Assembly (NCBI GenBank): GCA_945865315.1
Contig: CAMBDK010000004.1
Span: 1 to 60,028, forward strand
Source of the DNA: Chitinophaga pinensis
GTDB taxonomy: Bacteria > Bacteroidota > Bacteroidia > 2-12-FULL-35-15
Length of the DNA stretch: 60,028 bases
Reading direction: 5' to 3'
The position numbers and the translations under genes were made by a program. Position 1 is the stretch's first letter, and every line of letters starts with the position of its first letter. Shown here in pieces: positions 4,880-16,975 of the stretch. The notes beneath the pieces were generated by a model. That model searched no databases and had not been told where the DNA came from. It saw only the letters and a program-made list of their open reading frames with translations.

Positions 4880-9774
<4,895 letters not shown>

Positions 9775-11017: not shown

Positions 11018-11048
11018 ATTGTCTTTTCTTTTGATAGACATACATTTG
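11018..11048 (+). promoter_or_regulatory. Promoter of the DUF4856/TonB-receptor operon
   Basis: ATTG (11018-11021), a 19-bp spacer and TACATTTG (11041-11048) closely match the Bacteroidota TTTG-N19-21-TAnnTTTG promoter. Transcription would start near 11055, about 33 nt before the TTG start codon. I see no clear Fur-like palindrome. Confidence 0.6.
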
Positions 11049-11087
11049 TGCTGTTATTTTTAATCAATCTAAATAAGTAATAAGCAT

Positions 11088-12179
11088 TTGAAAACATCTA
11101 CAAAATTAAAATTTTTAGCTTTCGGGCTTTTTATGTTTGTGGGCTTCAGTTCTTGTAAAAAAGATAAAGACGAAGAAATTGTTCCAACTCCAACACCTGC
11201 AGGTTATACAGTACCTACCACCTACAGTTTTTCGAATGTTGTTTATGCTGGTCAAACCATTCGCTTGACCATGCTGGATTCTATCGGTAATTATATGAGT
11301 AAAGGAAATGGAGGAATCGTTTTGAGCGCATCCATCCTGAAAAATATGTATGCTAATACCGGAAGCCCATTTGGCAATACGAATTTAGATGCAAGTGGTA
11401 AACAATTGAAAAATAAAACATATGCTGCTGACCAGGCTTATTTCGATGCTTTATTTGATAGTATTGCTATGGCAAGTATTTCTGCTGGAGGTGCTGCATC
11501 TAATGGTGTAGCAGGTATTGAGAACGGACGACTATTTGATAGGAACGGAATAGAATTGTCCCAGGTAATTAAAAAACAATTGATGGGTGGTACATTCTAC
11601 TTTCAGGCTATGGATACATATTTGAGCAATTTACCTACAGATGATAATACTACCATAATAGCAGGTGAAGGCACTGCCCAAGAGCATCATGTAGATGAAG
11701 CTTTTGGATATTTGGGTGTACCCATTGATTTTCCAACCAATTTAACAGGATTGAAATATTGGGGTTCCTATTGTGATGAAGTAAACACTTCTATTACTTG
11801 CAGTGCGCCATTAATGAATGCTTTTTTAAAATTGCGCGCCGCTGTTTCAAATAAAGACAATAGTACTCGTGATGCACAAATTGTAATTATCAAAAATCAA
11901 TGGGAAAGAGTTGTTGCAGCTTCAGTTATTTTGGAGCTTACTGAGGCAAAAGCGGCTTTTGGTTTAGGAGATCTTACTGAAATGAAGCACGTACTTTCGG
12001 AAGGTGTAGGATTTATAAATGCGTTAAAATATAAAACAGATAAGCAGATTACGAATACACAAATTGATGCCGCGCTGGCAGCTTTAGGAACTAATTTTTA
12101 TACAATTTCTATTGCTGATATTGATAGTGCAATTAATACTGTAAATGCTGTTTATGGATTTAATTTAAGTGGTTTTTAG
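11088..12179 (+). CDS. DUF4856 lipoprotein
   Basis: A 363-residue lipoprotein. The start is a TTG codon at 11088: it gives a complete signal with basic n-region and lipobox GFSSC (Cys at about residue 24), whereas the first internal ATG (residue 17) would destroy it. The Cys is followed by KKDKDEE, typical of lipoproteins on their way to the outer membrane. The body matches DUF4856, including the EHHVDEAFGYLGVP region. Biochemical function is unknown. It is the first gene of a compact operon with an imelysin-like lipoprotein, an HTTM membrane protein and a TonB-dependent receptor, pointing to metal, most likely iron, acquisition. Confidence 0.85.
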   Translation: MKTSTKLKFLAFGLFMFVGFSSCKKDKDEEIVPTPTPAGYTVPTTYSFSNVVYAGQTIRLTMLDSIGNYMSKGNGGIVLSASILKNMYANTGSPFGNTNLDASGKQLKNKTYAADQAYFDALFDSIAMASISAGGAASNGVAGIENGRLFDRNGIELSQVIKKQLMGGTFYFQAMDTYLSNLPTDDNTTIIAGEGTAQEHHVDEAFGYLGVPIDFPTNLTGLKYWGSYCDEVNTSITCSAPLMNAFLKLRAAVSNKDNSTRDAQIVIIKNQWERVVAASVILELTEAKAAFGLGDLTEMKHVLSEGVGFINALKYKTDKQITNTQIDAALAALGTNFYTISIADIDSAINTVNAVYGFNLSGF

Positions 12180-12253
12180 TTTTTTATATTAATAAATGCA
12201 CTGCCCGAATGGTTTTAAATAAACTGTTAGGGATTTGTGCTAAAAATGGTCCA

Positions 12254-13393
12254 ATGAATTCGTTTAAAAAATATAATCTTTTTGTATTGATTGGAGCTGT
12301 TCTGGTTTTGACTTTCAATGCTTGTAAAAAAAACATAAAAGAGGATGAAATAATCCCCGAAGATTCTTTTGATAAAAGCGGCATGTTGGCTAATATTGGC
12401 AACAATATTATTATTCCAGCATATGCAAACTTGAAAATTTCTTTGGATTCATTGCAGGCATCTTCAAATTTATTTATTGCTAATCCTACACTTTCAACTT
12501 TAACCAAGCTTCAAACAATATTTTCACAAACATATAAAAATTATGAAAGCACTGCTGCCTTTGAATTTGGACCGGCAGAGGATGAATATTTCCGCACTAA
12601 TTTTAATGTGTTTCCATGCGATACATTGCAGATCAATAGTAAAATATCAAACGCTGATTTTATATTAGTTGCCGCTTCTGATATGGATGCTAAAGGATTA
12701 CCAGCTATCGATTATTTATTGTATGGAAGTAATAAGGATAATAATATTGTATTAGCAAAGTTCACTATTGATGGGCATGCAAGCAATGCAAAAACTTATT
12801 TAGGAGGGTTAATTAACGAATTAAAAACAAAATGCGATGCTGTTAACAAGGGCTGGAGCTCGTCAGGTGGAAATTATATTTCAGCTTTCAAAAGCACTGC
12901 AGGAAGCGATGTGGGAGGATCTATCGGCATGCTCGTAAATCAATTAAATTATGATTTGGAATTATTAAAGAATACGCAGCTTGGAATACCGCTTGGCAAA
13001 AAAACTCTTGGAGTGGCTCAACCTACAAAAGTGGAAGCCCTTTATTCGGAGCAATCATTGGTTTTGGTAGCGGCACATTTAAAAAGTATTGAAAATATTT
13101 ATTTAGGAAGAAGTACTTCGGATATCGAGGGGCTTGGACTGGACGATTATCTTGCACATATTGGTACGCAGTATGAATCAGGCTCCTTAAATGATGCGAT
13201 AAAAAATAAATTCAGCATGGCTAAAAATCTGTTATCGCTTATTCCAGGCACTTTAACTGATGCTGTTATAAGCAATGCCTCAGTAGTGGATGCAGCTTAT
13301 ATAGCGTTACAGCAACTTGTTATTCTTCTTAAGGTGGATATGCCTTCGGCTTTGGGGGTATCCATTACCTATGTGGATAACGATGGAGATTAA
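12254..13393 (+). CDS. Imelysin-family lipoprotein
   Basis: A 379-residue lipoprotein. The ATG at 12254 is preferred to 12209 because it yields a normal 24-residue signal ending LTFNAC. The remainder resembles imelysin/IrpA-like (peptidase M75) proteins: the segment AYANLKISLDSLQ, and GLPAIDYLLYG, which corresponds to the family GxHxxE motif but with Pro and Asp in place of His and Glu. Family members are iron-regulated periplasmic or outer-membrane proteins; proteolytic activity is doubtful and the altered motif argues against it here. It starts 75 bp after the DUF4856 gene and ends 15 bp before the HTTM gene. Confidence 0.82.
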   Translation: MNSFKKYNLFVLIGAVLVLTFNACKKNIKEDEIIPEDSFDKSGMLANIGNNIIIPAYANLKISLDSLQASSNLFIANPTLSTLTKLQTIFSQTYKNYESTAAFEFGPAEDEYFRTNFNVFPCDTLQINSKISNADFILVAASDMDAKGLPAIDYLLYGSNKDNNIVLAKFTIDGHASNAKTYLGGLINELKTKCDAVNKGWSSSGGNYISAFKSTAGSDVGGSIGMLVNQLNYDLELLKNTQLGIPLGKKTLGVAQPTKVEALYSEQSLVLVAAHLKSIENIYLGRSTSDIEGLGLDDYLAHIGTQYESGSLNDAIKNKFSMAKNLLSLIPGTLTDAVISNASVVDAAYIALQQLVILLKVDMPSALGVSITYVDNDGD

Positions 13394-13407
13394 TATAAGA
13401 TTTTTTT

Positions 13408-14766
13408 ATGATTTATAAAAAAATATCACGCCTGACAGAGCATGTGCATATTGCTCCCTTGTCCTTATTCCGAATACTTTTTGGTGGTATGATGTTCGCT
13501 TCCATCCTTCGATTTTCCTTAAAAGGATGGATCAATGAACTTTATGTAAAACCGATTTTTTTTTTCAAGTATTATGGTTTTGAATGGGTGAAGGTGCCAA
13601 ACGAAACAGGACTTTATATTCTTTTTGCTTTAGTTGCTATTTCTGCCCTATTTATTATGTTTGGGCTTTTCTACCGTTTTTCTGCGCTTGTATTTTTTTT
13701 AACCTTTACATATGCTGAACTATTAGATAAAACAAATTACCTCAATCATTATTATTTTGTTAGTATCATTGCTTTTTTAATGCTATTTCTTCCAGCAGGA
13801 AAATATTTTTCATTGGATGTTTATTTTCGCCCATCAAAAAAGCTCACGCACATTCCAAGGTGGTTCATTGGCGTTATCCAACTTCAATTAGCACTCGTTT
13901 ATTTTTTTTCCGGATTAGCTAAACTTAATGCTGATTGGCTTTTGGGTGCCCAGCCATTGCAAATATGGTTGCAAGCTCATTCCGATATGCCTATAATTGG
14001 TTTTCTGATGGATAAAGTATGGATTGCTTATTTATTTAGTTGGTTCGGCGCTTTTTATGATCTTACCATCGTATTTTTTCTGCTAAATCAAAGAACTAGA
14101 TTAATAGCATATTTCTTTGTAATTGTGTTTCATGTATTAACAGCAATATTGTTCCCCATAGGGATGTTCCCATACATAATGATCATATGCACCCTTATTT
14201 TTTTCTCTGCATCTTTTCACTTAGGAGTAATTGAGAAAATTAAAAAGTTTTTTAGCTTCCTTCAATCTGGAAATGAGGAACAAGTAAAGCACTATGTTTA
14301 TAAGCCTTTCGTAAAGAAATTTATTTTGGTATTTATGGTGTTTCATTTTACTTTTCAGTTAGTGTTGCCTTTTAGATATTTATTGTATCAGGGGAAATTA
14401 TTTTGGACGGAACAAGGTTATAGGTTCTCTTGGAGGGTGATGTTAATGGAAAAGAATGCCATAGCATATTTTTATGTTACAGATCGCGATACAGGAGGCT
14501 CTGGGGAAGTGATGATGAATAATTATTTGAGCCCTAACCAAGAAAAAATGATGGCTTCGCAACCCGATATGATATTACAGTACGCTCATTTTCTGAAACA
14601 AAAGTATCAGGCATTAGGGATGAAAAACCCTAAAATAACTGTTGAAAGCTACGTAACATTAAATGGTAAAGGAAGTCGCTTGTTCATTAATAAAAATGTT
14701 GACCTTACATTGCTGAGCGATAGTTTTGAAAATAAATGGTGGATTTTATCACCTGATGAAAAATAA
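13408..14766 (+). CDS. HTTM (VKGC-like) membrane protein
   Basis: A 452-residue integral membrane protein. The N-terminal two thirds hold about eight hydrophobic segments and carry HTTM hallmarks: LSLFRILFGGMMF near the start, YFFSGLAKLNADWLLGAQPL in the middle and FHVLTAILFPIGMFPYIM later. HTTM is the membrane domain shared with vitamin K-dependent gamma-carboxylases. After a last hydrophobic segment near residue 310 the C-terminal part (TEQGYRFSWRVMLMEKN and beyond) is soluble. Substrate and reaction are unknown in bacteria of this group. Its place between an imelysin lipoprotein and a TonB receptor is a recurrent Bacteroidota arrangement, so a role in the same uptake process is likely. Confidence 0.85.
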   Translation: MIYKKISRLTEHVHIAPLSLFRILFGGMMFASILRFSLKGWINELYVKPIFFFKYYGFEWVKVPNETGLYILFALVAISALFIMFGLFYRFSALVFFLTFTYAELLDKTNYLNHYYFVSIIAFLMLFLPAGKYFSLDVYFRPSKKLTHIPRWFIGVIQLQLALVYFFSGLAKLNADWLLGAQPLQIWLQAHSDMPIIGFLMDKVWIAYLFSWFGAFYDLTIVFFLLNQRTRLIAYFFVIVFHVLTAILFPIGMFPYIMIICTLIFFSASFHLGVIEKIKKFFSFLQSGNEEQVKHYVYKPFVKKFILVFMVFHFTFQLVLPFRYLLYQGKLFWTEQGYRFSWRVMLMEKNAIAYFYVTDRDTGGSGEVMMNNYLSPNQEKMMASQPDMILQYAHFLKQKYQALGMKNPKITVESYVTLNGKGSRLFINKNVDLTLLSDSFENKWWILSPDEK

Positions 14767-14767
14767 C

Positions 14768-16975
14768 ATGAGGAAGTTTAATTATTTATTATTGATCATT
14801 TTAATACCTGTTTTTATAAAAGCTCAGGATACTTCTTTTGTAAAGAAGGATTCTATAAAACATTTGCATGAAGTAATTATTGAAGCCGAAAAAGACAATG
14901 ATTTTGGTATTACAAGATTAAAACAGATAGAAGGAACAGCTATTTACGCAGGAAAAAAAACGGAAGTGATTTTACTTAATGATGTGAATGGTAATATAGC
15001 AACAAATAATTCACGTCAGATATTTGCAAAAGTAGCAGGATTAAATATTTGGGAAAGTGATGGTGCCGGAATTCAACTTGGCATAGGAGGAAGAGGCTTA
15101 AGTCCCAATCGAGTATCTAACTTTAACACGCGGCAGAATGGTTATGATATGAGTGCTGACGCATTGGGTTATCCTGAAAGTTATTATACCCCCCCAATGG
15201 AAGCTTTAGAGCGTATTGAAGTAGTTCGGGGTGCCGCTTCTTTACAATATGGTACCCAATTTGGTGGATTTATTAATTTTAAACTCAGACAAGCACCCGA
15301 AAAAAAGGCAATTGAAGTACGGGCTAAACAAACTGCTGCATCCTTTGGTTTTTATAATGCTTTCACTTCAGTTGCCGGAACAATTAAGAAGGTCAGTTAC
15401 AGCACGTTTTATCAGTATAAGGTTGGAAACGGCTGGCGTACGAATTCAAAATTTGATGTTCATACAGCTTTTGCTGGATTGGCATATCAGCTTAATTCTA
15501 AACTTAAAATAAGTGGAGAATATACGTTTATGAATTATCTGGCTCATCAACCAGGAGGGCTTACGGATAAACAATTTGCTAAAGATCCGAAACAGTCTAA
15601 CAGGGAAAGAAACTGGTTTGGAGTAAATTGGAACCTTGCAGCCGTTAATCTGGATTACGTGATTAACGAAACCTCAAGAATAAATTGGAGAACTTTTGGT
15701 CTTTATGCACAAAGGGATGCTTTAGGAAACTTGGGAAGGATTGACAGAACCGATGCAGGAGCAGAAAGAGATTATTTGCAAGATAAATTTAGGAACTACG
15801 GTAGCGAATTCCGTTATTTAAAAAGTTATAATCTTTTTAAAAAGATTTCTACTTTTCTGATAGGTGCTCGGTATTATAAAGGAATTACTTTTCGTAAACA
15901 AGGATTGGGAAATAAGGAAAAGACTCCTGATTTTTATTATATCAATCCTGATAATGTTGAGCATTCCAATTATACTTTTCCAAGTGAGAATGTCGCCTTC
16001 TTTTCTGAAAATATTTTTAGAATTACGCCCAAGCTAAATGTTACACCCGGCATCCGATTGGAATATATAAATACAAATTCAAAAGGTTATTACCATGAAG
16101 AGTCAAGTGATCTGGCGGGAAATATTCTCTATGAACGCAATGTGCAGGACAATCGCAGCAGTTACAGGAGTTTTATTTTAGCCGGACTTGGCTTAGGTTA
16201 TAAACTGAATAAATGTATTGAAACATACACCAATTTTTCACAGAATTACCGATCAATTAATTTTAATGATATGCGTATTGTGAATCCCAATTCCATGGTA
16301 GATAATAATTTGAAAGATGAGAGCGGTTATTCTTCTGATATAGGTATTCGTGGGAATATTAAGAGCTTAGTAAATTTTGATATGAGCTTCTTTTTTCTAA
16401 AATATAATAACCGCATAGGTTCTATTCAGAAGGTAGATAGCACAACCTATCAGGTTTACAGATACAGAACAAATGTTTCAGATTCCCGCAATTATGGTCT
16501 CGAGAGTTTTGTTGAGGCAGATATATTCAAATTAATAGCAGGAAAAAATAGAAAATTAGGAATTTCTATTTTCACCAATTTTTCATTCATTACGGCAGAA
16601 TATATCAATAGCAAAGAGCCATCTGTAAAAAATGGAAACAGCGTGGAGTTAGTGCCTGAAAAAATAAATAGAGCAGGAATAACTATTTCCTATAAAGATC
16701 TTAAAATAACCTATCAGCATGCTTATACTTCTGAACAATATACCGAAGCTACAAATGCAAAATCGACAAGCGCTGCTGTTGACGGTTTGATTCCTGCCTA
16801 TTCTGTAATGGATTTTTCTTTGAGCTATATTTACAAAAGGTTTTCGGTGTCATCAGGTATTAATAATTTATTGAATACTTATTACTTTACAAGACGTGCA
16901 GATGCTTATCCGGGACCTGGCATCATTCCATCTGACGGACGAAGTGTTTATTTTACCTTAGGAATAAAATTATAA
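14768..16975 (+). CDS. TonB-dependent outer-membrane receptor
   Basis: A 735-residue receptor. The ATG at 14768 follows the HTTM stop by one base, giving MRKFNYLLLIILIPVFIKAQ as signal peptide; ATGs at 14726 and 14756 lie inside the upstream gene. The plug domain spans about residues 45-170 (IEVVRGAASLQYGTQFGGFI is the usual plug end), followed by a barrel ending in YFTLGIKL. The SusC-type N-terminal carboxypeptidase-like extension is absent, and with no SusD neighbour this is a FecA-like, probably siderophore or iron-complex, receptor. The substrate cannot be read from sequence. Confidence 0.9.
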   Translation: MRKFNYLLLIILIPVFIKAQDTSFVKKDSIKHLHEVIIEAEKDNDFGITRLKQIEGTAIYAGKKTEVILLNDVNGNIATNNSRQIFAKVAGLNIWESDGAGIQLGIGGRGLSPNRVSNFNTRQNGYDMSADALGYPESYYTPPMEALERIEVVRGAASLQYGTQFGGFINFKLRQAPEKKAIEVRAKQTAASFGFYNAFTSVAGTIKKVSYSTFYQYKVGNGWRTNSKFDVHTAFAGLAYQLNSKLKISGEYTFMNYLAHQPGGLTDKQFAKDPKQSNRERNWFGVNWNLAAVNLDYVINETSRINWRTFGLYAQRDALGNLGRIDRTDAGAERDYLQDKFRNYGSEFRYLKSYNLFKKISTFLIGARYYKGITFRKQGLGNKEKTPDFYYINPDNVEHSNYTFPSENVAFFSENIFRITPKLNVTPGIRLEYINTNSKGYYHEESSDLAGNILYERNVQDNRSSYRSFILAGLGLGYKLNKCIETYTNFSQNYRSINFNDMRIVNPNSMVDNNLKDESGYSSDIGIRGNIKSLVNFDMSFFFLKYNNRIGSIQKVDSTTYQVYRYRTNVSDSRNYGLESFVEADIFKLIAGKNRKLGISIFTNFSFITAEYINSKEPSVKNGNSVELVPEKINRAGITISYKDLKITYQHAYTSEQYTEATNAKSTSAAVDGLIPAYSVMDFSLSYIYKRFSVSSGINNLLNTYYFTRRADAYPGPGIIPSDGRSVYFTLGIKL

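Follow-up and report, generated by a model that had tools for sequence, protein, structure and literature searches.

A vitamin K-dependent carboxylase homologue as a new element of an imelysin-type iron-uptake operon in Bacteroidota

To our knowledge, the bacterial homologues of GGCX, the vitamin K-dependent gamma-carboxylase that matures human clotting factors, have no agreed role. Such homologues are encoded by many Bacteroidota that use oxygen. In this study, we analyzed one of them, encoded within positions 11,018 to 16,975 of a 60,028-nucleotide stretch of Chitinophaga pinensis (contig CAMBDK010000004.1; the whole stretch is referred to as the window), where it is a new element of an imelysin-type iron-uptake operon. 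Among the closest systems described so far, the EfeUOB and PA4370-4373 operons are Fur-regulated envelope iron operons that share the IPPA/PA4372 type of imelysin, but there the partner is an EfeB-like peroxidase (PMC3143127); in its place, the present locus carries a protein with an HTTM membrane part and a VKGC lumenal domain (hereafter VKGC) together with a DUF4856 lipoprotein. No EfeB-like haem peroxidase was found in the conserved block, which comprises only DUF4856, imelysin, VKGC, and a TonB-dependent receptor. The operon itself has already appeared in the literature, listed among Fur-regulated genes: RAYM_09779-09794 of Riemerella anatipestifer show the same four-product order of TonB-dependent receptor, VKGC, imelysin lipoprotein, and a protein known there as hypothetical (RAYM_09794), and the passages found there neither discuss the carboxylase nor view the four genes as a system (PMC5609570). 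We found no paper that presents the operon in this way in the open-access literature, outside which most subscription journals fall, and none on HTTM together with imelysin or on DUF4856. Compared by products rather than as an operon, a related set is known from Tenacibaculum maritimum, in which a FecA homologue and four imelysin-like lipoproteins are abundant together in outer-membrane vesicles (PMC10288586).

The features of the locus are as follows:

11019-11048, + strand: Bacteroidota-type promoter, TTG (-33)-N19-TACATTTG (-7), identified by recurrence of the pattern in homologues.
11056-11074, no strand assigned: putative Fur box ATTTTTAATCAATCTAAAT, just 3' of the -7 box, scoring 10.6 bits with a Riemerella position weight matrix.
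11088-12179, + strand: DUF4856 lipoprotein (PF16148, 130 bits against a cut-off of 22.3; lipobox Cys23).
12254-13393, + strand: imelysin (Peptidase_M75) lipoprotein of the IPPA/PA4372 type (PF09375, 113 bits).
13408-14766, + strand: HTTM plus VKGC lumenal domain protein, a GGCX homologue (PF05090, 271 bits; PF22777, 181 bits; cut-offs 27.7 each).
14768-16975 (alternative ATG 14756), + strand: FecA-like TonB-dependent receptor (Plug PF07715, 39 bits).

The gaps between these four open reading frames are 29 or 74, 14, and 1 bp, within one base of the spacing reported in a first-pass annotation made from the sequence alone; the first value depends on the imelysin start, for which the ATG at 12209 is an alternative to that at 12254. 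That annotation had also read the four same-strand genes behind one promoter as an operon that recurs in Bacteroidota, and both points are supported by 119 Bacteroidota loci that carry all four genes in the same order, far beyond chance. A terminator scan returned nothing above shuffles.

These 119 complete blocks come from two samples, which may have a few genomes in common. The first is an even set of 296 Bacteroidota genomes, 69 of which carry the VKGC lumenal domain; with profiles built from the window proteins, we mapped the neighbors of the VKGC hits in 70 surrounding stretches, about 50 of which show the order DUF4856, imelysin, VKGC, receptor. The second, 80 named GTDB genomes found with the VKGC profile and biased towards operon copies, contributes 69 complete blocks from Cytophagales, Chitinophagales, Sphingobacteriales, Flavobacteriales, and Rhodothermaceae/Fodinibius. 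The sole rearranged variant seen, in Flavobacterium sp. AG291 (L213), has the receptor and VKGC exchanged and still adjacent. Among the 296 genomes, M75 is present in 62 of the 69 with VKGC (Fisher p 1e-45) and DUF4856 in 46 (Fisher p 9e-32). All nine VKGC-less genomes with M75 carry another imelysin type, and the four with DUF4856 never have it beside an operon-type imelysin; in no case, therefore, was the module observed to lack its carboxylase. The four proteins show correlated pairwise distances (0.83-0.89), which, with no species-tree control, is only consistent with joint inheritance. COX1 occurs in 285 of the 296 genomes and none of the 11 COX1-less genomes carries VKGC, a comparison with little power as a test of O2 dependence.

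VKGC homologues were also observed in other contexts. In the tree, the operon VKGCs cluster apart, at low node support, from a second class encoded between ribF (FAD synthetase/riboflavin kinase) and, at several loci, serS, without an imelysin (L067, L070, L073, L079, L080, L082, L083, and L088; Pfam check on L067 only). This class keeps Lys218 and His160 of GGCX, with Gln at the Asp153 position and His at that of Tyr395. A possible third context is represented by L095:6102-8420 and L096, where other homologues follow a 241-residue lipoprotein with a weak DUF4382 match and no imelysin is present. A second HTTM match in the Chitinophaga pinensis genome analyzed here (G000) is weak (32 bits; G000:C83:1463-1816, in a 598-residue frame).

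The association with iron rests on promoter regions and on published expression data. Of the 123 homologous upstream regions, 55 contain the pattern TTG-N18-21-TAnnTTTG, where shuffles predict 1.3; this bears out the proposed promoter at the level of the phylum. An E. coli-type sigma-70 scan gave nothing above chance. With the weight matrix, built from Riemerella Fur boxes (PMC5609570), boxes of at least 14 bits were detected in 87 of the 123 operon upstream regions versus 32 of 483 controls from the same loci (Mann-Whitney p 1e-41). When the 250-bp region was shuffled 1000 times, the window's own score was reached in 12 cases (p 0.012), and a Fur-family gene is present in the Chitinophaga pinensis genome studied. 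According to the Riemerella RNA-seq study, which lists RAYM_09779-09794 as Fur-regulated, expression without iron is 2.11-fold (TonB-dependent receptor), 2.64-fold (VKGC), 3.07-fold (imelysin), and 2.41-fold (fourth gene) higher, and a fur mutant grown with iron shows modest deregulation of the four genes (1.36-1.93; PMC5609570). The expression check under iron limitation proposed in the first-pass annotation, together with the iron link behind it, thus finds a positive answer in a relative (2.1- to 3.1-fold up), and we consider Fur-controlled iron uptake by the operon very probable. As a separate observation, the operon is immediately preceded by a gene for a LuxR-type response regulator, which has a Fur box of its own, at L239:3888-4553 (Pfam-checked), L188:3943-4572, and other Sphingobacteriales/Chitinophagales loci; the window has none there.

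The protein initially labeled as vitamin K carboxylase-like proved to be a full homologue of the vitamin K-dependent gamma-carboxylase, with the lumenal domain as well as the membrane domain. It can be aligned with human GGCX over residues 57-502 (E 6e-42), and its AlphaFold model (pLDDT 86) matches GGCX-substrate complexes with TM-scores of 0.83-0.86, the same fold as the human enzyme (0.86). In GGCX, Lys218 acts as the base, His160 and Asn159 belong to the Glu pocket, Val210, Trp223, Phe286, Phe294, and Phe299 line the quinone pocket, and Gly259 lies in the tunnel (PMC12589487). The first three correspond to K172, H114, and N113 of the window protein, and all 130 operon copies keep Lys218, His160, Asn159, Trp223, Phe286, His287, Phe299, Trp390, Trp399, and Met402; Gly259 is found in 129/130, Phe294 in 128/130, and Val210 is invariant or nearly so. 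In the numbering of the window protein, W177, F241, and F254 are present in 130/130 copies and F249 in 128/130. The Tyr395 position is occupied by Tyr or Phe, the basic Arg436 position probably by Lys, and that of Met401 by Val in all copies. Since pairwise identity among these copies falls to 39%, the invariance of catalytic and cofactor residues argues for selection on catalysis, and the enzyme is likely to be catalytically competent and menaquinol-using. As for the cofactor, the genome contains MqnA/MqnD-type and UbiA prenyltransferase genes, so menaquinone is probably made via the futalosine route, which would explain why MenA and MenD models gave no match above cut-off in the genome.

Among the secreted partners, the receptor is the most conserved, with 151 columns at or above 93% conservation. 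Its designation as FecA-like is supported, since FecA, the ferric dicitrate receptor, is its nearest solved relative (E 5e-38; next 7e-15), yet the two differ: the Pfam scan found no N-terminal signaling domain (STN) in the operon receptor, and only some of the FecA citrate ligands, mapped by hand on the alignment and not used as proof, are kept, several being lost. The NCBIfam FecA equivalog matches only partially (103.8 bits against a cut-off of 1100), and many TonB receptor models match weakly.

The other two secreted proteins had been called outer-membrane lipoproteins; their lipobox cysteines (GFSSC and TFNAC) uphold the lipoprotein part, and the outer-membrane location, read from the lipobox, is a prediction. 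Profile searches with the imelysin matched 3n8u, 3pf0, and 4ecg. Its motif GxPAxDYLL (GLPAIDYLLYG in the alignment) stands in place of GxHxxE, with the His lost, and it ends in Asp-Gly-Asp, a terminus found in 127 of 128 VKGC-linked imelysins and absent from the other Bacteroidota imelysins checked. We rejected this terminus as a VKGC-specific carboxylase signal and regard it as a trait of an imelysin subfamily, because the Psychrobacter IPPA (3pf0) ends in the same way. DUF4856 has a confident, all-helical AlphaFold model (pLDDT 93) and no solved relative, and a comparison with the PDB gave no fold match with E below 0.28. An imelysin fold for DUF4856, considered for an HxxE-like stretch, was rejected in view of this confident model without a PDB match and of a profile search that found none. 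E305 of DUF4856 is the sole invariant Glu in either lipoprotein (119/119 linked copies), and Gln or Arg replaces it in two of the four VKGC-less DUF4856 proteins, which makes it a candidate modification site, a lead based on small numbers. At one locus (L243, genome G230), a DUF4856 protein with Gln at this position occurs without VKGC or imelysin, in a COX1-less genome and in a cluster with a Peptidase_Mx1 lipoprotein.

Taken together, the best explanation, to which we give somewhat less than an even chance, is a Fur-repressed outer-membrane module for ferric-chelate uptake whose carboxylase modifies a lipoprotein of the module. Under iron starvation, the cell would make the FecA-like receptor, the imelysin and DUF4856 lipoproteins, and an inner-membrane carboxylase facing the periplasm. 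Like human GGCX, the carboxylase would consume menaquinol, O2, and CO2: menaquinol would be deprotonated by K172, and an acidic side chain, having lost a proton to the oxygenated quinone base, would then be carboxylated. The most likely substrate would be one of the two neighboring lipoproteins, an assignment we regard as plausible though slightly short of even; once modified, it may gain a malonate-type carboxylate that holds ferric iron beside the receptor. More tentatively, menaquinol may serve bacteria as the vitamin K for forming gamma-carboxyglutamate or carboxy-aspartate on a lipoprotein of iron uptake, an invariant Glu such as E305 being the first candidate.

Several observations weigh against lipoprotein carboxylation as proposed here. 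The operon VKGCs end at about residue 502 and are missing all of GGCX beyond it, including the second propeptide lobe and the Arch; Lys217, which binds the substrate protein in GGCX, is replaced by Ala or Ser, and Tyr425, a propeptide contact (PMC12589487), is not kept, so that a substrate cannot be held in the manner of the animal enzyme. The chemistry thus looks intact, as judged from the residues kept, and the animal mode of holding a substrate does not. Neither lipoprotein has a Glu-rich, Gla-like domain (at most 5 Glu per 45 residues), E305 lies inside a predicted helix, and no report of Gla from these bacteria was found. At the window itself the Fur box scores low, below most boxes of its homologues. 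In animals, VKOR recycles vitamin K epoxide; VKOR (PF07884) was not found in genome G000, and its occurrence is uncorrelated with that of VKGC (16 of 69 VKGC genomes versus 56 of 227 others; p 0.87). Either the epoxide is recycled by some other reductase, or its loss is tolerable for a modification that is slow and stoichiometric.

The absence of VKOR also fits the main rival explanation, in which VKGC performs redox chemistry in place of an EfeB/DUF1111-type haem peroxidase, using menaquinol and O2 on the periplasmic side to help release the iron that the imelysin hands over or change its valence. Elsewhere, an imelysin nearly always has an EfeB-like peroxidase as its partner (PMC3143127), VKGC is the sole enzyme gene here and lies beside the imelysin, and its quinone pocket is better conserved than its protein-substrate exosite. 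However, a pure quinol oxidase would have no need of the Glu pocket (Asn159, His160, Tyr/Phe395), which is kept, epoxidation by GGCX is reported to depend on bound Glu (PMC9146348), and some genomes hold separate, more canonical imelysins as well; overall, we consider this rival unlikely. The largely missing exosite would equally suit an enzyme that carboxylates a small molecule, such as a citrate-like chelator or siderophore recognized by the receptor, and the strong conservation of a receptor whose nearest solved relative transports ferric citrate points the same way. This is nevertheless somewhat less likely still, given that the operon has no conserved gene for chelator biosynthesis or export and that only some of the presumed citrate ligands are kept.

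The iron response might instead be indirect and the module import another metal or a metal-bound cofactor, as the many weakly matching TonB receptor models would allow; the Fur boxes in most lineages, the direct iron/Fur response in the Riemerella genes listed, and the link of imelysins to iron in several phyla (PMC3143127) make this improbable. Finally, a Leptospira GGCX homologue reportedly has altered activity, a weak argument for regarding the HTTM protein as a degenerate, merely structural or chaperone-like relative. This we hold to be the least probable of all, as the catalytic and cofactor residues persist across the 130 divergent copies.

Elsewhere in the window, at 4880-9774, two overlapping open reading frames with collagen-like Gly-Ser-Thr repeats follow a PorP/SprF and OmpA pair; the second combines a PKD-like domain with repeated units of the adhesin type.

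Across the phylum, a VKGC with an intact active site is tied to a receptor and two lipoproteins by gene order, by co-occurrence, and by Fur control. These findings narrow the question of what a bacterial vitamin K carboxylase does to a few candidate substrates and partners and a simple growth condition. If lipoprotein carboxylation as proposed here is true, vitamin K would gain a bacterial function beyond respiration, and a new means of constructing a ferric-iron site would come to light; the vitamin K-dependent carboxylation familiar from blood clotting would, in addition, be a modification widespread among bacteria for iron acquisition.

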